This document shows positions 2,472 through 10,811 of a stretch of DNA of 50,838 nt, in pieces; positions within the stretch are counted from its first letter, which is position 1; the number at the start of each line of letters is the position of its first letter. Below the pieces are notes generated by a model that was not told the origin of the DNA, searched no databases, and worked only from the letters and a program-made list of their open reading frames with translations. The stretch covers positions 1 through 50,838 of the forward strand of contig JAJFHV010000023.1 in NCBI GenBank assembly GCA_021775415.1, given 5' to 3'. The DNA comes from Hyphomicrobiales bacterium (GTDB taxonomy: Bacteria > Pseudomonadota > Alphaproteobacteria > Rhizobiales > Rhizobiaceae). Position numbers and translations under genes: made by a program.

Positions 2472-3431
2472 TTACCCCTCCGTGGCCTTGCCCTGGTAGT
2501 ACTGATAGATGGTCATCGGTAAAACGAGCAGGATGAGCAGGACAATGGCAACGGCTGAAGCAACTGGCCAATCGGTGTTGGCGGCGAACTCATTGTAGAG
2601 CAGTCGCCCGATCATGAGCACGTTACCGCCACCGAGCAAATCAGGAATCACATATTCACCCGTTGCAGGAATGAATACGAGCAAGGAACCAGCGACAATT
2701 CCAGGCGTTGTCAGCGGCAATGTAACCTTAAAGAACGTGTTTGTGGGTCGTGAACCAAGATCTGCTGCTGCTTCGTTCAAGGAACCGTCCAGCTTTTCCA
2801 TATTGGCGTACAACGGCAGAATCATGAACGGCAGATAGGTATAGACAATACCAATGTAGACCGCGAATTCCGTGTAAAGCATTCGTATCGGTTCATCGAT
2901 CAGACCGATCCAGATCAGCAGATTGTTGATTGTCCCCTGATCGGCCAACAAACCCATCCACGCGTATACCCGCAGCAAAAAAGATGTCCAGAACGGCAAG
3001 ATGACCGCAAACAACAGCAGTTTTTTTGCAACCGGGCCTGAGCGGACAATCCCATAGGCCATCGGGTATCCGATCAAGAGGCAGAATATTGTCGAGATTA
3101 TCGAGATCTTGAGTGAATTGATGTAGGTTCGGGAATACAGATCATCGTTGAAGATATAAATGAAATTATCGAACACGATGCGAATGGTCATCGCGCCGCT
3201 GTCAGTCCATTCAATCATCTTCGAGAACGGAGGGCTGGCAATCACCAATTCCGCAACGCTAATCTTGGCGACTATGAAAAATGGCAGCAGGAAAAAAACC
3301 AGTAGCCAGACATAGGGAATAAAGACGACTATCGAGCGCCAGCCGGCTTGCATGCGTCGAGCAAGTTGCCGGAACATTCCCGAATGCTCCGGCGAGGATT
3401 CCATAACGGTATTTTCCGACAAATCGCTCAT
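2472..3431 (-). CDS. potH: Putrescine ABC transporter permease PotH
   Basis: A 319-residue permease with a cytoplasmic N-terminus of about 30 residues, then six predicted membrane segments. The EAA motif is present as NEAAADLGSRPTNTFFKV. The start chosen is ATG at 3431 because it overlaps the potG stop codon in an ATGA arrangement, which implies translational coupling; an upstream in-frame ATG at 3464 lies inside potG and is less likely. It should pair with PotI in the membrane and receive polyamine from PotF. Confidence 0.9.
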   Translation of the reverse strand: MSDLSENTVMESSPEHSGMFRQLARRMQAGWRSIVVFIPYVWLLVFFLLPFFIVAKISVAELVIASPPFSKMIEWTDSGAMTIRIVFDNFIYIFNDDLYSRTYINSLKISIISTIFCLLIGYPMAYGIVRSGPVAKKLLLFAVILPFWTSFLLRVYAWMGLLADQGTINNLLIWIGLIDEPIRMLYTEFAVYIGIVYTYLPFMILPLYANMEKLDGSLNEAAADLGSRPTNTFFKVTLPLTTPGIVAGSLLVFIPATGEYVIPDLLGGGNVLMIGRLLYNEFAANTDWPVASAVAIVLLILLVLPMTIYQYYQGKATEG

Positions 3432-4567
3432 TTGTTCAGCAACATTGCACTCGAGGGTTCCCAATTGAGATAAACTGTATCTTCCCAGGTAATTCCATGC
3501 GTCCTGCTTTTGGGCCTGATCTGATTGGGCGATGTCACGTCAACAATCTGGCCGGTATCCAGACGAATTTTGTAGATTGAGGAATTCCCCAGGTAACCTA
3601 TATCGTCGACCTTTCCGGCCGCTTGATTTGGTCCCGACTTGGTCGGAGCTTTCTTGCTGAGGTGGATTTTTTCCGGTCGAATGGCGGCCCATACACGGCT
3701 ACCCATTTTAGTCGACTGGCCATGATCAATATAAATCTCACCCAGGCTGGTTGAGACTCGCACGTGATCAGCACCATCTTCTACAATCTCGCCTTCGAAT
3801 ATGTTTGCTGAACCAATAAAATCAGCAACAAATCGTGTTTCGGGAAACTCGTATATCTCTGTGGGAGTGCCGATCTGCACAAATTCCCCCTTGTCCATCA
3901 CCGCAATCCGGCTGGAAAGCGTCATCGCTTCTTCCTGATCATGGGTAACGACAACGAAAGTGATGCCAACCTGCTCCTGAATATTGGCGAGTTCAAACTG
4001 GGTGTGCTCACGCAATTTTTTATCAAGTGCTGCGAGCGGCTCATCGAGCAGAAGAACCTTTGGCTTTTTAACCAACGCGCGGGCAAGCGCTACGCGCTGT
4101 CGTTGACCACCGGAAAGTTGTTGGGGTTTGCGGGCTTTGAAGTCCTGCAACTCCACAAGCTTCAAGATATCGTCGACCCGGTCGGCAATTTCATCGTTTG
4201 GCACTTTGTCCTGTTTCAAGCCAAAAGCCACATTTTTTTCGACGGACATATGCGGGAAAAGCGCGTAGCTTTGAAACATCATGTTTGTGGGTCGTTCATA
4301 GGGCGGCACTTGAGACATGTCAGCGCCGTCGATGACAATCGTGCCGGATGAAGGCGTTTCAAATCCAGCCAGCATTCTGAGCAGGGTCGTCTTGCCACAA
4401 CCCGACCCCCCTAAAAGACAAAACAATTCACCCTGGTAAATGTCGAGATCAACATTGTTTACCGCGATGAATTCACCAAATTTCTTTGTAATGCCCTTGA
4501 TGCGGATAAGTGGTTCAGCATCCTTGTCGAGCCATGGGGTGTCGCTGGCGGTCGGTTCACCGGCCAT
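3428..4567 (-). CDS. potG: Putrescine ABC transporter ATP-binding protein PotG
   Basis: A 379-residue ABC ATPase energising the PotHI channel. Visible motifs, in order, are Walker A GGSGCGKTT, signature LSGGQRQRVALARAL, Walker B VLLLDEPLAALD and the switch histidine in VVTHDQEEA. A C-terminal TOBE-like regulatory domain of about 100 residues follows, normal for the polyamine/sugar group. The start is taken as ATG at 4567, with GAGG seven bases upstream; the longer frame to 4618 would begin inside the hairpin that separates potF and potG. It overlaps potH by 4 bp. Confidence 0.92.
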   Translation of the reverse strand: MAGEPTASDTPWLDKDAEPLIRIKGITKKFGEFIAVNNVDLDIYQGELFCLLGGSGCGKTTLLRMLAGFETPSSGTIVIDGADMSQVPPYERPTNMMFQSYALFPHMSVEKNVAFGLKQDKVPNDEIADRVDDILKLVELQDFKARKPQQLSGGQRQRVALARALVKKPKVLLLDEPLAALDKKLREHTQFELANIQEQVGITFVVVTHDQEEAMTLSSRIAVMDKGEFVQIGTPTEIYEFPETRFVADFIGSANIFEGEIVEDGADHVRVSTSLGEIYIDHGQSTKMGSRVWAAIRPEKIHLSKKAPTKSGPNQAAGKVDDIGYLGNSSIYKIRLDTGQIVDVTSPNQIRPKSRTHGITWEDTVYLNWEPSSAMLLNK

Positions 4568-4609
4568 AGTGGGCCTCAATTCTGTAAAGCAGCAAATTTT
4601 TCGGTGTAG

Positions 4610-4636
4610 CGGCGGCACCCCGTGGGGGTGCCGCCG
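4610..4636 (-). promoter_or_regulatory. Intercistronic hairpin between potF and potG
   Basis: CGGCGGCACCCC and GGGGTGCCGCCG form a perfect 12-bp stem with a 3-nt loop between the potF stop and the potG start. On the minus strand it is not followed directly by a run of T, so it is more likely an mRNA-stabilising or partial termination element than a full terminator. Such hairpins often let the binding protein be made in excess over the membrane subunits; that role is inferred here. Confidence 0.7.
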
Positions 4637-4653: not shown

Positions 4654-5775
4654 CTAGTTGCCAGCTTTGAAGTCTGTCCAGGTCCTGGTCCGAAATTTTT
4701 CGGCTTTTGGAGGCAACGGATTCAATGTGTACATATCCGCTACAAGGTCCGGGGTCGGGAAGGCAGCCGTGCTTGAGGTAACTGCCTCGTCGATCATGGG
4801 TTTTGCCGTGATATTCGCGGTCGCATACCAGGTGTAATTACTGTCACCTGCGGCCACGTCCGGGCGCATCATGTAGTTTAGGAACAGGTGAGCGTCTTCG
4901 ATGTTTTTGGCGTCTGCCGGAATTACCCAGCCATCAACCCAGAAGTTGGCCTTGCCCGCACCAGTCGGCAGGAAGAAATCAAGCACCACACCGGTATTGG
5001 CTTCTTCGGCTCCAGACATCGCAAGCAGTCCATCTGGGCCCCATGTTGTCGATACACAGAATTCTTTTTGCGGCATCCTTTGATAGGCATAGTTGTCAAA
5101 TGTCTTGATGTAAGGACGGATTTCTTTCAGCATCGCTCCGACTTTTTCATAATCCGCTTTGTCGGTTGAATCCGGTGGAAGGCCAAGGTGAGTAAGCGCC
5201 ATCGGGATCATGTCGGTAGGCGAATCAAGGAATGAAACACCACATTTGGCCAGTTCCTTCATGTGTTTGGGATCGAAAATCATGTCGATCGAACCAATTG
5301 GTGCATCAGGATAAGTCTCAAGCACCAGTTCCTTGTTGTATGTCACACCATGTGTGCCCCACATAAATGGGACAATATGCTCGTTACCCGGGTCCCACTT
5401 GCCAGCCAATTGACCCATTACCGCTGCGTCCATGTGCTTGAAATTATCCAGCTTTGATTTGTCGATGGACTGCAAAATGCCACCGGCCTTAATCAGACGG
5501 GCAATTTGTGAAGCGGCGTGCGAGACAACATCGTACCCGCTGTCACCGGCCAACAACTTGGCATCGATTGCCTCAACCGACTCGTAATTGTCGTAGATAA
5601 CCTTGATGCCGTATTCTTTTTCGAAATTTGCGATCGTCTCTTCGCCGATATATTCGGCCCAGTTGGTGACTTTCAGCACTCTTTCTTGAGCAGTTGCCTG
5701 CTGGATTGAAGCGGACATTGCCAGTGCAAAAGCACCCGCGCAAACCGCTTTAATTGTTGTATTCATGATTGTCAT
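4654..5775 (-). CDS. potF: Periplasmic putrescine-binding protein PotF type
   Basis: A 373-residue secreted solute-binding protein. A Sec signal peptide covers about residues 1-29, with a hydrophobic core and a cleavage-like AQQATAQE region. The mature protein starts with the PotD/PotF signature VTNWAEYIGEETIANFEKE and has the expected length for this family. It captures polyamine in the periplasm and delivers it to PotHI. GGGAG lies just upstream of ATG 5775; a second in-frame ATG three codons later is possible. It is separated from potG by the 12-bp hairpin and from the upstream aminotransferase by 112 bp. Confidence 0.92.
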   Translation of the reverse strand: MTIMNTTIKAVCAGAFALAMSASIQQATAQERVLKVTNWAEYIGEETIANFEKEYGIKVIYDNYESVEAIDAKLLAGDSGYDVVSHAASQIARLIKAGGILQSIDKSKLDNFKHMDAAVMGQLAGKWDPGNEHIVPFMWGTHGVTYNKELVLETYPDAPIGSIDMIFDPKHMKELAKCGVSFLDSPTDMIPMALTHLGLPPDSTDKADYEKVGAMLKEIRPYIKTFDNYAYQRMPQKEFCVSTTWGPDGLLAMSGAEEANTGVVLDFFLPTGAGKANFWVDGWVIPADAKNIEDAHLFLNYMMRPDVAAGDSNYTWYATANITAKPMIDEAVTSSTAAFPTPDLVADMYTLNPLPPKAEKFRTRTWTDFKAGN

Positions 5776-5887: not shown

Positions 5888-7333
5888 TTATGCGACCGGC
5901 ATTCTGCTCAATTTGATTCCCTCCTGCTTGTACTTCACCATCGCTTCCAAAAGGCCATCGCGTTTCAGGTCTTCCGATGCAAGCTCAATGCCCTTTTTCA
6001 GGATATCGAACATCTGGTTGATTTGATTTTCATTGATCACCAGTGGTGGTGAGAACACGCACATGTTTATCAGCGGACGCAGGATCAGGCCCAATTCCTG
6101 GCAGTGGTGATCGATGCGAGCGCCAACGGTAATATCCAACTCCAGCGCATTCGGGGCATTCTTGTCGATGGCGCATTCAACACAACCTACCAATCCCATG
6201 CCGCGTGTATCTCCCACTATCGGCAACTCGCGCAAGGCATGCAGCCGTTCCTGAAACAACGGTGAAACCGCTCTCACGTTTTCCAGAATTCCGTCACGTT
6301 CAATAATTTCAATGTTTTTGAGCGCTGCTGCTGCGGATACCGGGTGGCCCGAATAGGTGTAGCCATTCGAAAATGTGGCGCCCTTGGAATTTTCACCCGA
6401 AATGCTGTCAATCAATTGATCCGAAATGATGCAGGCACCCATCGGAACATATCCGGAGGTCAGTCCCTTGGCACAGGTGATGATGTCGGGAACAATTTCA
6501 AACACATCCTCGGAAGCAAACCAGTGGCCAAGGCGGCCAAAGCCGGTGACAACTTCATCCGAAATATACAGGACATCGTGCTTGCGACAGACTTCCAGGC
6601 AGCGTTTGTGATATCCTTTTGGCGGCACAATCACACCGCCGGATGCCAAAATTGGCTCGGCGATGAAGGCTGCTACCTTGTCCGCACCGATGGTCAGGAT
6701 TGCATTTTCCAGATCGGAAATTTTTTCATCCAGAAACGCCTCAACGCTTTGACCTTCCGGGCGGATATACGGGTTCACATTTGGCAGGAAGTATCCAATG
6801 CCCTCCGCCTGATCCAACCAGCCTTTGTCGCGCTCTTTGCCGCTGACGGTCGCTGCCAGATAGGTTGAGCCGTGATATGCTTTTTGGCGGGAAATCACGA
6901 CTTTCTTTTCCGGACGACCCAGAATGTTGTTGCGGAAATGAATGAACCGCAATGCTGTATCAACGGCTGTTGAACCGCCAGTCGTGAAAAACACATGGTT
7001 CAAATCGCCCGGCGTACGTTCAGCAATTTCATGCCCCAAACGGGCGGTGACCGAGTTTGTATTGCTGAATGGAGAGAAGTACGCCATTTCCCGTGCCTGT
7101 GCCGCCATCGCTTCAGCGATCTCGGTATTGCCATAGCCGATTTGGACGCACCACATCCCAGCCGGCCCATCAATCAGACGCTTGCCATCTTCGGTGGTGA
7201 CGTAAATTCCGTCGGCGCTTTCCATGAAGGACCGATCGTTTTGACCAATACCGGTCATCCCTTCCCAGGGATGGACGAAATTGTTGTTGTCCCATTCGCG
7301 GACCGACTGAAAGTCTGAATTCCTGATATTCAT
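5888..7333 (-). CDS. Class III (omega) aminotransferase, putrescine/polyamine:pyruvate type
   Basis: A 481-residue fold-type I PLP enzyme. The catalytic lysine is Lys289 in DIITCAKGLTSGYVPMGA, and the PLP-binding Asp is in YISDEVVTGFGR. Length and motifs match the SpuC/omega-amine:pyruvate aminotransferase group, which converts putrescine to 4-aminobutanal using pyruvate. It is the first gene of the leftward potFGHI block, which supports a polyamine substrate, although beta-alanine or GABA transaminases belong to the same family. The 133 bp before it contains a TetR-type palindrome at 7372-7389 shared with the divergent regulator gene, so expression is probably polyamine-responsive. Confidence 0.88.
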   Translation of the reverse strand: MNIRNSDFQSVREWDNNNFVHPWEGMTGIGQNDRSFMESADGIYVTTEDGKRLIDGPAGMWCVQIGYGNTEIAEAMAAQAREMAYFSPFSNTNSVTARLGHEIAERTPGDLNHVFFTTGGSTAVDTALRFIHFRNNILGRPEKKVVISRQKAYHGSTYLAATVSGKERDKGWLDQAEGIGYFLPNVNPYIRPEGQSVEAFLDEKISDLENAILTIGADKVAAFIAEPILASGGVIVPPKGYHKRCLEVCRKHDVLYISDEVVTGFGRLGHWFASEDVFEIVPDIITCAKGLTSGYVPMGACIISDQLIDSISGENSKGATFSNGYTYSGHPVSAAAALKNIEIIERDGILENVRAVSPLFQERLHALRELPIVGDTRGMGLVGCVECAIDKNAPNALELDITVGARIDHHCQELGLILRPLINMCVFSPPLVINENQINQMFDILKKGIELASEDLKRDGLLEAMVKYKQEGIKLSRMPVA

Positions 7334-7371
7334 AATTGCACTTCATTGACAGTTCAGATATGTTGCTAAAA

Positions 7372-7389
7372 TGAATGACCGTTCATTCA
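7372..7389. promoter_or_regulatory. TetR/BetI-type operator between divergent polyamine operons
   Basis: TGAATGACCGTTCATTCA has perfect 7-bp arms (TGAATGA / TCATTCA) around CCGT, the classic form of a BetI/TetR operator. On the minus strand a TTGACT at about 7390-7395 could be the -35 of the aminotransferase-pot promoter, which would place the operator in the spacer. The adjacent TetR gene at 7467 is the obvious candidate to bind it and so control both directions. The palindrome is seen; the binding is inferred. Confidence 0.75.
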
Positions 7390-7466
7390 AAGTCAATGAT
7401 TGTTTTTTGATGACACGTTGATGCAAGGCTCATTATGGGGAATCTGAACGTTGAACAGGCCAAAAA

Positions 7467-8132
7467 ATGGATGAGTTAGTTGATGCTGATGAAGTGCTGA
7501 ATGCCCGTGACCGTGGCAAAAAACGCCACAGGAGACAGCTTTTGGATGCAACGTCAGAGGCGATTTACCTGTATGGCGTTCGTGGAGCCACGATAGACAA
7601 GATTCACGAGATTTCCGGCCTCTCTCGGGGAATGATCAGTTTGCATTTCCAGTCTAAGGAGAATCTTTTGAAGGCGGTCGCAAAAGATCTCGCCGATGAG
7701 TACACGCAAAACTGGCAGGAGAGCGTTATTGCCTCTCACGAAGGTGAGCCGGTGGAGCGCTTGAATTCATTAATTGCGGCAGATCTTTCGCCTGCAGTTT
7801 TAAATGAAAGGAACATCGCAATATGGTTTTCTTTCCGCGCCGAGGTGAACTCGCATCCGGAATATCGACATTACGTGAATTCACGCGATTCTGAATTTCG
7901 AGTGGCACTCCTGGGAATTTTTCGAGGGCTGATCTCAGACGATCCTGATCGGGATGCTGAAGCCAAATTGGCAACCAACACACTGACTGCACTGCTTGAA
8001 GGGATGTGGACTGACTTCCACCTTAACCCCAAAAACTTCGACCGCGACGAGGCCCAAAGAGCTTGTCTTTATGTTGCCCGGAGCTTCTTCCCGGATAATT
8101 TTGAACCCCAGCCACCCCTTGATATCCAATGA
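7467..8132 (+). CDS. TetR family regulator, BetI-like
   Basis: A 221-residue protein with an N-terminal TetR helix-turn-helix at about residues 20-65 (GATIDKIHEISGLSRGMISL, then HFQSKENLL). The C-terminal half resembles the BetI-type ligand domain. It diverges from the aminotransferase-pot block and its stop codon overlaps the start of the Rieske gene by 4 bp. It is thus the first gene of a four-gene unit and probably represses both that unit and the leftward polyamine operon through the palindrome at 7372-7389. The ligand may be a polyamine or an aldehyde product; this is inference. Confidence 0.88.
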   Translation: MDELVDADEVLNARDRGKKRHRRQLLDATSEAIYLYGVRGATIDKIHEISGLSRGMISLHFQSKENLLKAVAKDLADEYTQNWQESVIASHEGEPVERLNSLIAADLSPAVLNERNIAIWFSFRAEVNSHPEYRHYVNSRDSEFRVALLGIFRGLISDDPDRDAEAKLATNTLTALLEGMWTDFHLNPKNFDRDEAQRACLYVARSFFPDNFEPQPPLDIQ

Positions 8133-9337
8133 CACAAGCTATTTCCAACCGCGATACGAGTATTCCAAAGAACTGGGATCGCAAAGGCTTACCCGGCTGG
8201 TGCTACAGCAGCCCCGCTCTTTTGGAACTTGAAAAGGAATCGGTCTTCAAAATGCATTGGCAAATCGTTTGCCATTTGTCTGACATCCCAAACAAGGGAG
8301 ATTATCAGACCTTCGACATGTGTGGAGAACGGGCGCTGATAATTCGTGACCGGGATGATGAGGTTCGGGCGTTTTACAATCTTTGCCGTCATCGGGGCTC
8401 TCGGGTTGTTGGCAAAGAATCGGGCAATTGCAAAAATGCGATTGTCTGCCCGTTTCATGGCTGGGTGTACAATCTGGACGGAACACTGCGCGGCGCGGCG
8501 CGGCCAAACACCTTTCCCGAACTTGACAAACAGAAGTTCGGACTGCGTCCGATTAATTGTGAGGTCTGGAATGGTTTCGTGTTTATCCGCTTCAATGAAG
8601 GTCCTCAGCCCAGTGTGAAGACACTGCTTGCACCATTTGAGGTAGAGGCTGCAAAATACCGGATGGATTGCCTGGCTCCGACGGACGGTATCTCGACAAG
8701 CATGACCCCCATCAACTGGAAATCTGTTCGCGACGTGGACAATGAGGGATACCATGTGGCGATGGCCCACCCTGCCCTGCAGGACCTGTATGGTCCAAGC
8801 TATTATGATGAACCTTACGTCAATGGTATCGGCCGTTCGCACGCTTTGTTCAATCCATCTGGTGGTCGGCGGTGGAGCGTGCGTCACTATCTCAAAACAT
8901 CCGAACCACAATCATTTATGCCGGAAGAACTTGCAGATGCATGGCTTTACTACGGAATATTCCCGAATGCCGTTTTCGGATTTACACCGGAATCCGTACA
9001 GTTTTATCAAGAGTTTCCACTCTCAACTGGTGAGACCCTGCAACGCAGTGCAACCTATCGCTATGCGGATGAAACACGCGAACAACGAGCGGCGCGGTAT
9101 CTGGCTTCAAGAATTGACCGCGAAACCACGGAAGAAGATGTTCAATTGACCATCTGGTCTGATGAATCCACAAAGTCGGAGGCTTTTGAGGGCTTTTATC
9201 TTTCCGATCTCGAGTATGGCGTGAGGACACATCACGAGCATCTACGAGCAATCCTGCCGGTTTACACGCTGGACAATTCACCGGCTGAAGAAGCAATGGC
9301 CGAAGTTAATGCCAAAATGGCAAGTGACAGGGCTTAA
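8129..9337 (+). CDS. Rieske non-heme iron oxygenase, alpha subunit
   Basis: A 402-residue oxygenase. The [2Fe-2S] ligands are Cys86-x-His88 in NLCRHRGSRVV and Cys107-x2-His110 in CPFHGW. The mononuclear iron site is in DNEGYHVAMAH, with His209 and His214; a third carboxylate ligand is probable in EEDVQLTIWSDE. The residue three before His209 is Glu206 rather than the usual bridging Asp, as in carnitine monooxygenase CntA, which points to the amine/quaternary-ammonium branch rather than aromatic dioxygenases. No reductase gene lies in the window, so electrons must come from elsewhere. It overlaps the regulator upstream by 4 bp and the 79-residue gene downstream by 1 bp. The substrate is unknown; a polyamine or N-methylated amine is suggested by context. 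Confidence 0.88.
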   Translation: MTQAISNRDTSIPKNWDRKGLPGWCYSSPALLELEKESVFKMHWQIVCHLSDIPNKGDYQTFDMCGERALIIRDRDDEVRAFYNLCRHRGSRVVGKESGNCKNAIVCPFHGWVYNLDGTLRGAARPNTFPELDKQKFGLRPINCEVWNGFVFIRFNEGPQPSVKTLLAPFEVEAAKYRMDCLAPTDGISTSMTPINWKSVRDVDNEGYHVAMAHPALQDLYGPSYYDEPYVNGIGRSHALFNPSGGRRWSVRHYLKTSEPQSFMPEELADAWLYYGIFPNAVFGFTPESVQFYQEFPLSTGETLQRSATYRYADETREQRAARYLASRIDRETTEEDVQLTIWSDESTKSEAFEGFYLSDLEYGVRTHHEHLRAILPVYTLDNSPAEEAMAEVNAKMASDRA

Positions 9338-9576
9338 TGACAGACCCCTTGCCGCCGGAACATGCGAACGCCATTCAAACGGCACTTCTGCAAACACCGA
9401 CCGGCATTTCTGGCTCTGGCTTCACCCGTTACGCAGCCGCGATGTATTTTTACAAGCAGGGAAAGATTTCGCCGGAACTGCTGGAAATCTACAGAAGATG
9501 CTGCAAGTGGGATGATGAAGACCCGCGCAAGCTTGCCGAACACGAGGGAATTGAACTTCGAGAACTGCCCCAATGA
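9337..9576 (+). CDS. Small protein (79 residues) coupled to Rieske and amine oxidase genes
   Basis: I do not recognise the family. The start is fixed by a TAATG overlap with the Rieske gene, and the end overlaps the amine oxidase start by 4 bp, so all three are translationally coupled. The protein is soluble and mostly helical in composition, with an aromatic patch (FTRYAAAMYFYKQG) and adjacent cysteines in EIYRRCCKWDDEDP; there is no signal peptide or membrane segment. Being placed between two redox enzymes, it could be a small subunit, a chaperone or a substrate adaptor, but nothing in the sequence decides this. The tight coupling makes a spurious ORF unlikely. Confidence 0.75.
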   Translation: MTDPLPPEHANAIQTALLQTPTGISGSGFTRYAAAMYFYKQGKISPELLEIYRRCCKWDDEDPRKLAEHEGIELRELPQ

Positions 9577-10811
9577 CCTCGTTACCGCAAAATCCTGACG
9601 TAGTAGTTATTGGCGCAGGAGCTGCCGGTCTTGCCTGTGGAAGAGCATTGATGGAAGGCGGCAAATCCGTTCTTATACTCGAAGCAGCAGCGACGATTGG
9701 TGGTCGATGTATTACAGACAACGAAACATTTGGCCTACCGTTTGATCGTGGTGCGTCCTGGATGCATTCAGCGAGTATCAATCCACTTGTTCCTTTGGCA
9801 GAGCAAGCAGGATGCAGCATCCACAAAACCGAGTGGAACTATGGCCGGGCCCAAATTCACGGTCATGATTTGAATGAAATTGAATTGGCAGCGTACAACG
9901 CCTATCACGCTGACATGTGGGCAGCAGCCGGCAACTCACCACAGGATGTGCCAATCTCAGAGGTTTTGCCTGAAAGTCCCTGGCGCGCCACCGCCCAACA
10001 CTGGATTGCGCAATATTTTTCGGTGGATGCGGATCGGGCATCAACTGGCGATTATGCTCAACATGAAAGCGGTGAAGGCGATTGGCTGGTTGGCGATGGA
10101 CTTGGATCATTAATCGCAAGGCTTGGGGCTGATGTTCCGGTGGAATTGAATTGCCCCGTTACCGAGATAGACTGGTCCGGGCTGAATGTGGCCATCACGA
10201 CTCCCAAGGGCACCGTCCGGGCGAAACATATAGTCATAACCGTTTCGACCGGTGTGCTGGCCGCCGAATCAATTCGATTTTCACCCTCCCTACCCGATGA
10301 GAAGCTACAGGCAGTTGCAGCCCTGCCGATGGGACTGCTTCAAAAGGTCGGGATTATGTTTGACGAAAACTGGAAAGAGGCTGGCGAAGGTTATCTTGCC
10401 GATTACCATAAGCAGGATGAAGCGTTCTGCTCTTTGGAGTTCGGATTTTTTGGCACCGGATTGGCGATCGGTTTTGTGGCTGGTCGTTTTGCGCAGCAAC
10501 TTGAGTTGGAAGGAGCGGGTGCCTCAACAGATTTTTGCATAACCGGGCTGAAGGAATTATTTGGCAATGATGTTGCCAGGCACATCCTGAAGACAGATGA
10601 AACATCATGGATGGGCAACCCTCACACGCTCGGGGCCTATAGTGCTGCCCTGCCCGGCCAGGCGCACCAGCGTGAAGTGTTGGCAAAGCCGCTCGATGGT
10701 CGGTTATTTTTTGCTGGTGAAGCAACAATCCCGAAAGCCTATGCGACGGTTCATGGTGCGCATATGAGCGGGATTGGCGTTGCCCGGCATATTCTCGCCC
10801 AGCACCGATAA
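9573..10811 (+). CDS. FAD-dependent amine oxidase, polyamine-oxidase-like
   Basis: A 412-residue flavoprotein. The Rossmann motif VVIGAGAAGLACG begins at residue 11, the ribose-binding Glu37 is in LILEA, and GGRC completes the amine oxidase signature. The C-terminal FAD motif FFAGEATIPKAYATVHGAH followed by MSG resembles the GEAT--Y-T-HGA--SG of spermine/polyamine oxidases and LSD1 rather than L-amino-acid oxidases. There is no signal peptide, so it is cytoplasmic. It would oxidise an amine to an imine, yielding an aldehyde, an amine and hydrogen peroxide. As the last gene of the TetR-Rieske unit beside potFGHI, a polyamine or a hydroxylated derivative is the likely substrate; the exact reaction is unknown. 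Confidence 0.85.
   Translation: MTSLPQNPDVVVIGAGAAGLACGRALMEGGKSVLILEAAATIGGRCITDNETFGLPFDRGASWMHSASINPLVPLAEQAGCSIHKTEWNYGRAQIHGHDLNEIELAAYNAYHADMWAAAGNSPQDVPISEVLPESPWRATAQHWIAQYFSVDADRASTGDYAQHESGEGDWLVGDGLGSLIARLGADVPVELNCPVTEIDWSGLNVAITTPKGTVRAKHIVITVSTGVLAAESIRFSPSLPDEKLQAVAALPMGLLQKVGIMFDENWKEAGEGYLADYHKQDEAFCSLEFGFFGTGLAIGFVAGRFAQQLELEGAGASTDFCITGLKELFGNDVARHILKTDETSWMGNPHTLGAYSAALPGQAHQREVLAKPLDGRLFFAGEATIPKAYATVHGAHMSGIGVARHILAQHR

Follow-up and report, generated by a model that had tools for sequence, protein, structure and literature searches.

A contig from a Hyphomicrobiales bacterium (assembly GCA_021775415.1, contig JAJFHV010000023.1) carries a gene cluster built around a Rieske non-heme-iron oxygenase and a polyamine-type importer. 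The contig was analysed over its entire length of 50,838 bases, called the window below, and belongs to a host genome of 3.46 Mb. Genes for PotIHGF-like transport proteins and a class III aminotransferase lie on the minus strand, divergent from a plus-strand operon encoding a TetR regulator, the Rieske oxygenase, a 79-residue protein and a flavin amine oxidase. We tentatively interpret the cluster as a regulon under TetR control that breaks down a di- or polyamine with an N-methyl or other N-substituent, with the Rieske enzyme carrying out oxidative N-dealkylation, a reading held with somewhat less than even confidence. It is based on the core genes shared by every locus of the same type, on the co-occurrence of the 79-residue protein with the Rieske enzyme and on recurring operator-like sites, as well as on neighbouring genes of N-demethylase type in relatives, the likeness of the Rieske enzyme to carnitine monooxygenase, including its bridging Glu, and the acidic residues kept in the PotF-like binding protein.

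Layout and conservation of the cluster

The four genes of the operon overlap throughout, as the first-pass annotation of this DNA had reported. The TetR gene (7467–8132, plus strand; PF00440 and PF13977) overlaps the gene for the Rieske alpha subunit (8129–9337, plus strand; PF00355 and PF00848) by 4 nt, the Rieske gene shares 1 nt (TAATG) with the gene for the 79-residue protein (9337–9576, plus strand; no Pfam domain), and this in turn overlaps the gene for the flavin amine oxidase (9573–10811, plus strand; LSD/polyamine-oxidase fold family, PF01593 at 173 bits) by 4 nt. An import system and a SpuC-like transaminase had been described as lying divergent to this unit. The arrangement stands for both the PotIHGF genes and the aminotransferase gene (5888–7333, minus strand; PF00202), but the aminotransferase belongs to the PRK07036 family, a sister of SpuC, and is SpuC-like only in a wide sense.

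To compare the cluster with its relatives, loci were grouped from homology-based gene maps before counting. The counts are lower bounds, since the available stretches were of unequal length, and many loci are from close relatives and are not independent events; the rules for removing near-copies also differed, leaving 126 loci for the operator count and 125 for the gene-content count. Named Rieske orthologues among the best 80 of 442 confirmed loci came from Mesorhizobium, Ensifer, Shinella and Hoeflea (Rhizobiaceae-type genera) and from Rhodobacteraceae. All 14 Rhodobacteraceae/Paracoccaceae loci among those best 80 were of the same type as the window. After near-copy removal this window type comprised 18 loci, all from Rhodobacteraceae, and a PotF-type solute-binding protein, ATP-binding cassette (ABC) transport genes, the Rieske gene, the 79-residue protein and an amine oxidase were present in 18 of 18. 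A TetR gene was found in 16, an aminotransferase in 14, and a methyltransferase and an 819-residue dimethylglycine dehydrogenase (DMGDH)-like protein in 11 each, with an amine-dehydrogenase-like protein of the flavin mononucleotide (FMN) type in five; either a DMGDH-like or a histamine/trimethylamine dehydrogenase (HDH/TMADH)-like gene was present in 16. The trio of Rieske, small protein and oxidase thus lies beside PotFGHI-like genes in every window-type locus rather than mostly away from polyamine genes, which supports the earlier proposal of a single unit with a conserved trio next to polyamine-type import genes and one TetR-type operator.

A second, Rhizobiaceae type (92 loci) combines the Rieske gene with a divergent aminotransferase, permeases and an ATPase, a different solute-binding protein, a TetR gene and often an amine oxidase; an S-adenosylmethionine (SAM) methyltransferase, phytoene-desaturase-like flavoproteins, a GcvT-like protein and the 79-residue gene also occur. 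Of the 78 loci of this type with full flanks, 73 had a PotG-like ABC ATPase (identity of 40% or more) no farther than 11 kb from the Rieske gene; inside this radius, an aminotransferase was present in 74, a solute-binding protein in 58 and an amine oxidase in 40. In Rhizobiaceae, the GcvT-like and 79-residue genes were mostly outside it, 13–15 kb from the Rieske gene. A third type, found in nine loci of other Rhodobacteraceae, holds the Rieske gene, a PotF-like solute-binding protein, ABC genes and the 79-residue gene in 9/9 and GcvT-like and crtI-like genes in 8/9; one further locus of this type, L166, was excluded, its Rieske gene being on another contig. A class-wide Rieske search gave eight matches; five besides the window were retrieved, and one, L172 (44% identical), had no match at the map thresholds and was dropped. 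Five more distant loci, with L172 left out as a sixth, carry ABC genes in 4/5 and an aminotransferase in 4/5.

In a phylogenetic tree, the window Rieske protein joins the clade of window-type Rhodobacteraceae, itself supported at 100/99, with support of 92/83, which is below the limit applied. The window Pot proteins and aminotransferase are 68–85% identical to those of window-type Rhodobacteraceae loci. Because the PotFGHI proteins of a genome from the host's own genus, G114, are even closer (79–87% identical; locus L217, 2728–13272), a transfer between the families, in either direction, is no more than a possibility. No Rieske, 79-residue or amine oxidase match was found within 17 kb in L217. 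The PotFGHI genes there are flanked by two HDH/TMADH-type genes (one tested), and this importer therefore also travels with N-demethylase-type enzymes alone.

The 79-residue protein, linked genes and operator-like sites

That the small open reading frame between the Rieske and oxidase genes is a real gene, and one linked to this Rieske group, is indicated by the 13 invariant columns in an alignment of its product with 20 relatives and by its co-occurrence with the Rieske gene. The family shares the motif SGxxRYAAAMxFY...LEIYRxCSKxDxEDP, and the AlphaFold2 model of the window protein (predicted local distance difference test score 84) consists of four helices. The window protein matched no Pfam or NCBIfam family and no sequence in the PDB below E 0.9, and the best hit of a Foldseek fold search was at E 2.4. 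Across the family, the only Pfam match was that of one member out of 21 to TPR_16 (E 0.033), and a phrog match was at E 0.15.

In the host's own family, a Rieske orthologue was present in 36 of 151 genomes (E 1e-60; 55–67% identity apart from the window's own copy) and the 79-residue gene in 34 (E 1e-3), and in a sample of 198 Rhodobacteraceae genomes the respective counts were 27 (E 1e-70) and 14, with at most 37 (own family) and 28 (Rhodobacteraceae) candidates for the small protein scored per genome. All 34 own-family and all 14 Rhodobacteraceae genomes with the 79-residue gene also carried the Rieske orthologue, so that over the 349 genomes of the two families the 48 with the small gene fall entirely within the 63 with the Rieske gene. 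The hypergeometric probability of this overlap is 9e-32 in the own family and 2e-14 in Rhodobacteraceae, with relatedness ignored. In 44 of the 48 genomes the two genes were on one contig, with a distance of up to 38.6 kb (no more than 20 kb in 40 genomes); the remaining four had them on separate contigs. The two own-family genomes with the Rieske gene alone were G114, which has the most divergent orthologue (55%), and G089, where the Rieske contig is only 5.2 kb. A class-wide search found the 79-residue gene in one of 385 genomes, the host's own, a weak negative result with at most 14 candidates scored per genome.

The neighbours of these genes in relatives include enzymes of N-demethylation and one-carbon-capture families. 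The 819-residue DMGDH-like protein combines DAO and GcvT domains. Of 19 own-family genomes in which the surroundings of the 79-residue gene were checked, 16 have a GcvT-like gene no more than 1 kb away from it (G010, G055 and G087 do not), and one separate GcvT-like protein scored best against the trimethylamine N-oxide (TMAO) demethylase model, at 244 bits, below the cut-off of 1100. The FMN protein from G114 matched histamine dehydrogenase at E 1e-206 and trimethylamine dehydrogenase at E 1e-169, and the FMN proteins of other loci were alike by tblastn. The first-pass annotation had suggested N-dealkylation or hydroxylation by the Rieske enzyme, and these N-demethylase-type genes favour N-dealkylation, as part of a putative pathway on a putative substrate. 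The window genome itself has 12 GcvT-family matches.

Between the divergent units lies an operator-like palindrome, TGAATGACCGTTCATTCA (7372–7389), at a distance of 39 nt from the start of the aminotransferase gene and 78 nt from that of the TetR gene. It had been described as the one perfect palindrome at this position; it is the sole such site in the window at up to two mismatches, and its 7-nt arms (TGAATGA and TCATTCA) are perfect, but the inner 4 nt (CCGT) are not fully symmetric. As shuffled sequences contain 0.41 such sites on average, the palindrome alone is weak evidence. The pattern TGAATG-N(2-6)-CATTCA occurs once in the 3.46-Mb genome, as does a reversed control pattern. In relatives, the half-sites recur upstream of cluster genes. 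TGAATG-N2-CATTCA gave 52 matches in the 126 loci (2.45 Mb) compared to 0.05 in mononucleotide shuffles, and 51 of the 52 sites lie within 450 nt upstream of the start of a Rieske, DMGDH-like, methyltransferase, crtI-like or aminotransferase gene, indicating that the extra genes of the relatives belong to one regulon. At least one site with a spacing of 0–8 was found in 43 of the 126 loci, the window included, and none in 83. The exact N4-spaced palindrome had no match in relatives outside the window's own copies, and a search of other spacings gave the N2 form and one N10 site.

The TetR protein carries a BetI-type C-terminal domain (PF13977) and scores 86.2 bits against the BetI model TIGR03384, below the cut-off of 201.3, and the choice of a TetR that would bind and repress at the operator-like sites is a provisional one. 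Scans for sigma-70 promoters and terminators gave results at or below the level of shuffled sequences. In locus L082 (1288–4715) and its Ruegeria equivalents, a SAM methyltransferase gene is divergent from the DMGDH-like gene, with an operator-like site between them.

Importer, enzymes and the nature of the substrate

The importer genes form a minus-strand run consisting of a PotI-like permease (1623–2465; PF00528), a PotH-like permease (2472–3464; PF00528), a PotG-like ATPase (3428–4618; PF00005 and PF08402) and a PotF/SpuD/SpuE-like solute-binding protein (4654–5775), which matched PDB entries 3ttl, 3ttm and 1a99 at E 1e-78 to 1e-81. The true start of the PotH-like protein is possibly internal to its reading frame, and an internal ATG in the PotG-like frame coincides with the start of its relative in L217. 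The putrescine system gave the best NCBIfam equivalog for each protein, none above its cut-off: PotF at 298 bits (cut-off 636), PotG at 483.3 (613), PotH at 398.1 (489) and PotI at 353.6 (476). The ATPase exceeded the cut-off of the polyamine ATPase subfamily TIGR01187 (415.6 against 355.6 bits). In the binding pocket, the window protein keeps W37, Y40, W244, D247 and D278 of PotF, has D in place of E185, and differs by S38 to A, D39 to E, S85 to A and F276 to W. Acids at positions 185, 247 and 278, which we take to be the amine-binding acids of PotF, are kept in 18 of 18 close PotF rows and in eight of nine rows of a group at 38–50% identity, the ninth row being incomplete.

Such a pocket would also suit ordinary catabolism of putrescine, cadaverine or spermidine by transamination and flavin oxidation, with the Rieske enzyme acting on an internal intermediate. 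The diamine carboxylates of PotF are kept, the amine oxidase resembles LSD2 and spermine oxidase, and the window genome has no other PotF-type solute-binding protein at E 1e-15, which favours a plain polyamine in the window host. The PotFGHI system of R. pomeroyi (SPO3466-3469) is moreover a tested polyamine importer, as given in extracts of PMC10130141. In Ruegeria, however, the window-type importer is additional to a canonical PotF system. A window-type PotF (74–76% identical) was present in nine of 54 Ruegeria genomes, and all nine also carry a second PotF that is 37–39% identical to the window's; eight of the nine second loci were mapped, and all eight consist of PotFGHI genes beside a different class III aminotransferase, which was of the PRK07480/SpuC family in the one tested. 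SPO3466-3469 appears to fit this canonical, paralogous locus, and the identification of the window importer with the known R. pomeroyi system was rejected, as the window-type PotF in Ruegeria is a different paralogue. Nor do these genomes support reading it as the general polyamine importer. With the window aminotransferase outside the SpuC family and the relatives' N-demethylase-type genes left without a role, we regard an ordinary polyamine route as quite unlikely.

The aminotransferase and oxidase were assigned by model and structure matches. SpuC was rejected as the identity of the aminotransferase, which reached 679.6 bits against NF005447/PRK07036 (cut-off 618) and 447.6 bits against PRK07480 (cut-off 510), the model to which SpuC presumably belongs. 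The aminotransferase of the canonical Ruegeria locus scored 771 bits against PRK07480, and the solved polyamine:pyruvate transaminase 9j4z matched that enzyme at 608 bits compared to 314.5 bits for the window enzyme, whose closest solved relative is 3i5t. The best PDB matches of the amine oxidase were LSD2, spermine oxidase and monoamine oxidase. It has the flavin adenine dinucleotide (FAD) motif GAGAAG at residue 14 and Lys258 within LLQKVGIMF, at a position we take to be that of the catalytic Lys of flavin polyamine and monoamine oxidases. By a simple pattern, this Lys was present in two of three relatives' oxidases, with no match in the Ruegeria one; in Ruegeria-like window-type loci, the oxidase is only about 32% identical to that of the window.

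The best PDB match of the Rieske protein was carnitine monooxygenase, followed by 4qup ('monoxygenase; demethylase'), presumably Stc2. C86/H88, C107/H110, H209, H214 and D360, which we take to form the 2Fe-2S CxH...CxxH site and the mononuclear His-His-carboxylate site, are invariant in 25 orthologues and shared with YeaW. E206, also invariant in the 25, aligns with the bridging Glu of YeaW, which corresponds to E205 of CntA; that residue is described as the bridging Glu in extracts of PMC10952381, which also state that some Group V Rieske members carry a Cys pair (CXXC) beside the iron. The window genome has 18 Rieske-domain matches in its 3.46 Mb, compared to 10–14 in six Rhodobacteraceae genomes.

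These matches are also consistent with a quaternary, betaine-like substrate that is no polyamine, a trimethylammonium compound demethylated as by GbcA, CntA and Stc2. Besides the PDB matches and the bridging Glu, the GbcA model (NF058607) matches 25 of 25 Rieske orthologues tested, the TetR is of BetI type, the Rhizobiaceae-type solute-binding protein keeps Trp at 37, 244 and 276 and loses D278, and the third locus type retains Rieske, importer and GcvT-like genes with no amine oxidase or aminotransferase at the thresholds used. The window Rieske protein, however, scored 133 bits against the GbcA cut-off of 670 and does not have the CXXC pair, the window PotF retains acidic residues for amine groups, and the window unit encodes a class III aminotransferase and an amine oxidase, which imply primary or secondary amines; this makes a betaine-like substrate unlikely.

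Rieske enzymes are frequent ring hydroxylators, and we also considered a biogenic amine with a ring, cyclic or aromatic (histamine-like, or an alkaloid), that the Rieske enzyme would hydroxylate on this ring. HDH/TMADH-like neighbours in 5/18 window-type loci, with the family shown for one protein, would agree with such a substrate. The Rieske protein is nearer to carnitine monooxygenase than to ring dioxygenases, though, no beta subunit adjoins its gene, and PotF keeps a diamine-type pocket, and we consider ring hydroxylation improbable.

Proposed pathway and relation to known systems

The substrate that we favour, most likely a modified di- or polyamine, would carry one or more primary amino groups and one or more substituted nitrogens, the substituent probably being a methyl group. 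PotFGHI would import it, and the Rieske enzyme, supplied with electrons by a reductase encoded elsewhere, would oxygenate next to the substituted nitrogen so that the substituent leaves as an aldehyde. The freed amines would then be oxidised by the flavin amine oxidase and transaminated by the class III aminotransferase. In relatives, a DMGDH-like, GcvT-like or HDH/TMADH-like protein may take off further N-methyl groups, with the one-carbon unit handed to tetrahydrofolate where a folate domain is present. The 79-residue protein would be a dedicated helper of the pathway, and the BetI-like TetR is predicted to bind the TGAATG..CATTCA palindromes and to be released by the substrate or a product. 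The order of the steps and the role given to the small protein are, like the substrate, deduced from gene content and homology.

Several observations weigh against this pathway. The cluster enzymes include none with a tested relative acting on the proposed substrate, and the window operon, with its TetR, Rieske, 79-residue and amine oxidase genes, contains no reductase gene. The window Rieske protein has G207 and V210 where the CXXC cysteines would be in the alignment with YeaW, and the identical half-sites of the window palindrome are spaced at N6, not N2. The 79-residue gene was not found at E 1e-3 in 13 of the 27 Rhodobacteraceae genomes with a Rieske orthologue (48–57% identical). At E 1e-4, the window contig has no DMGDH-, GcvT-, methyltransferase- or crtI-like match, and the best GcvT-family match in the window genome is 34% identical, so one-carbon-capture modules in linked form seem to be missing from the window host. 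The SAM methyltransferase, present in 48 of the 92 Rhizobiaceae-type and 11 of the 18 window-type loci, has no role in the proposed model, and neither have the crtI-like proteins. In the third locus type, the amine oxidase and the aminotransferase were found in 0/9 loci at the thresholds used (only one of the nine has 8 kb on both sides), and a recheck gave only a 29–30% aminotransferase match in 1/10. Finally, among 102 rows of the Rhizobiaceae-type solute-binding protein, the 94 with displayed signatures carry C in place of PotF D278 and either T or A in place of D247, which makes the term polyamine unsafe for the whole group; PotD of E. coli, which does bind polyamines, keeps D at 278 but likewise lacks D at 247, where it has S.

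The cluster shares features with several known systems. Like CntA/YeaW and GbcA of Group V, the window Rieske enzyme consists of an alpha subunit only and conserves the iron ligands and bridging Glu, but it is 31% identical to YeaW, has Gly207/Val210 in place of CXXC, and falls far below the GbcA cut-off; in E. coli, yeaW is followed by yeaX, whereas the window Rieske gene has no adjacent reductase gene. As in the canonical pot-spuC locus of the Ruegeria type, PotFGHI genes adjoin a class III aminotransferase, but the window set is paralogous (PotF 37–39% identical, PRK07036 in place of PRK07480/SpuC) and adds the Rieske enzyme, the 79-residue protein and the amine oxidase. Demethylation of stachydrine and N-methylproline, which we take to be the function of Stc2 and its partners, likewise involves a Rieske demethylase relative (PDB 4qup), and partners of FMN amine-dehydrogenase type occur in some window relatives; the window has polyamine-type transport and a class III aminotransferase instead. 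GcvT-fold folate domains in window relatives, one of them the protein with 244 bits to the TMAO model, recall TMAO demethylase (Tdm) and dimethylglycine dehydrogenase, but that score is below the cut-off, and such a protein is absent from the window contig and a separate protein in Rhizobiaceae.

No description of the cluster was found among the papers listed by searches of open-licence PubMed Central. The enzyme families are known ones. Their combination appears to be undescribed, as do the small protein family and the operator-like site. In its broadest form, the proposal would be an undescribed regulon in Rhizobiaceae and Rhodobacteraceae that demethylates and degrades N-methylated polyamines with a non-CXXC Rieske N-demethylase and exchangeable one-carbon capture modules, is served by a polyamine-type importer and a TGAATG-N2-CATTCA operator of its own, and includes a new small-protein family as obligate Rieske partner; this we regard as possible but doubtful. 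Plants and algae produce polyamines and methylated amines, which serve as nitrogen sources. A Rieske-based route, if true, would be a new entry reaction for the catabolism of amines by marine bacteria and soil symbionts. A Rieske group not named by any of the curated models tested would gain a function, and the 79-residue protein would stand for a new family whose role can be put to the test. Through the operator-like site that its genes share, the regulon can be tested directly in laboratory strains.

Other genes of the window were noted in passing. A second TetR regulator gene (PF00440; 975–1556, plus strand) is convergent on the 3′ end of potI and was unlabelled in the map of any relative. 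Just past a LysR gene, the gene for a vWA/YfbK-type protein (PF12034 and PF12450; 11927–14547, minus strand) overlaps that of a sigma-70 region 2 factor. A beta-lactamase-fold protein (PF00144; 18135–19361, minus strand) clusters with a gene beside a second Pot-like ABC system in Ruegeria locus L085, and members of another such cluster, the one in L056 likewise PF00144, adjoin the Pot-like ABC genes next to the Rieske gene in loci L056 and L070.

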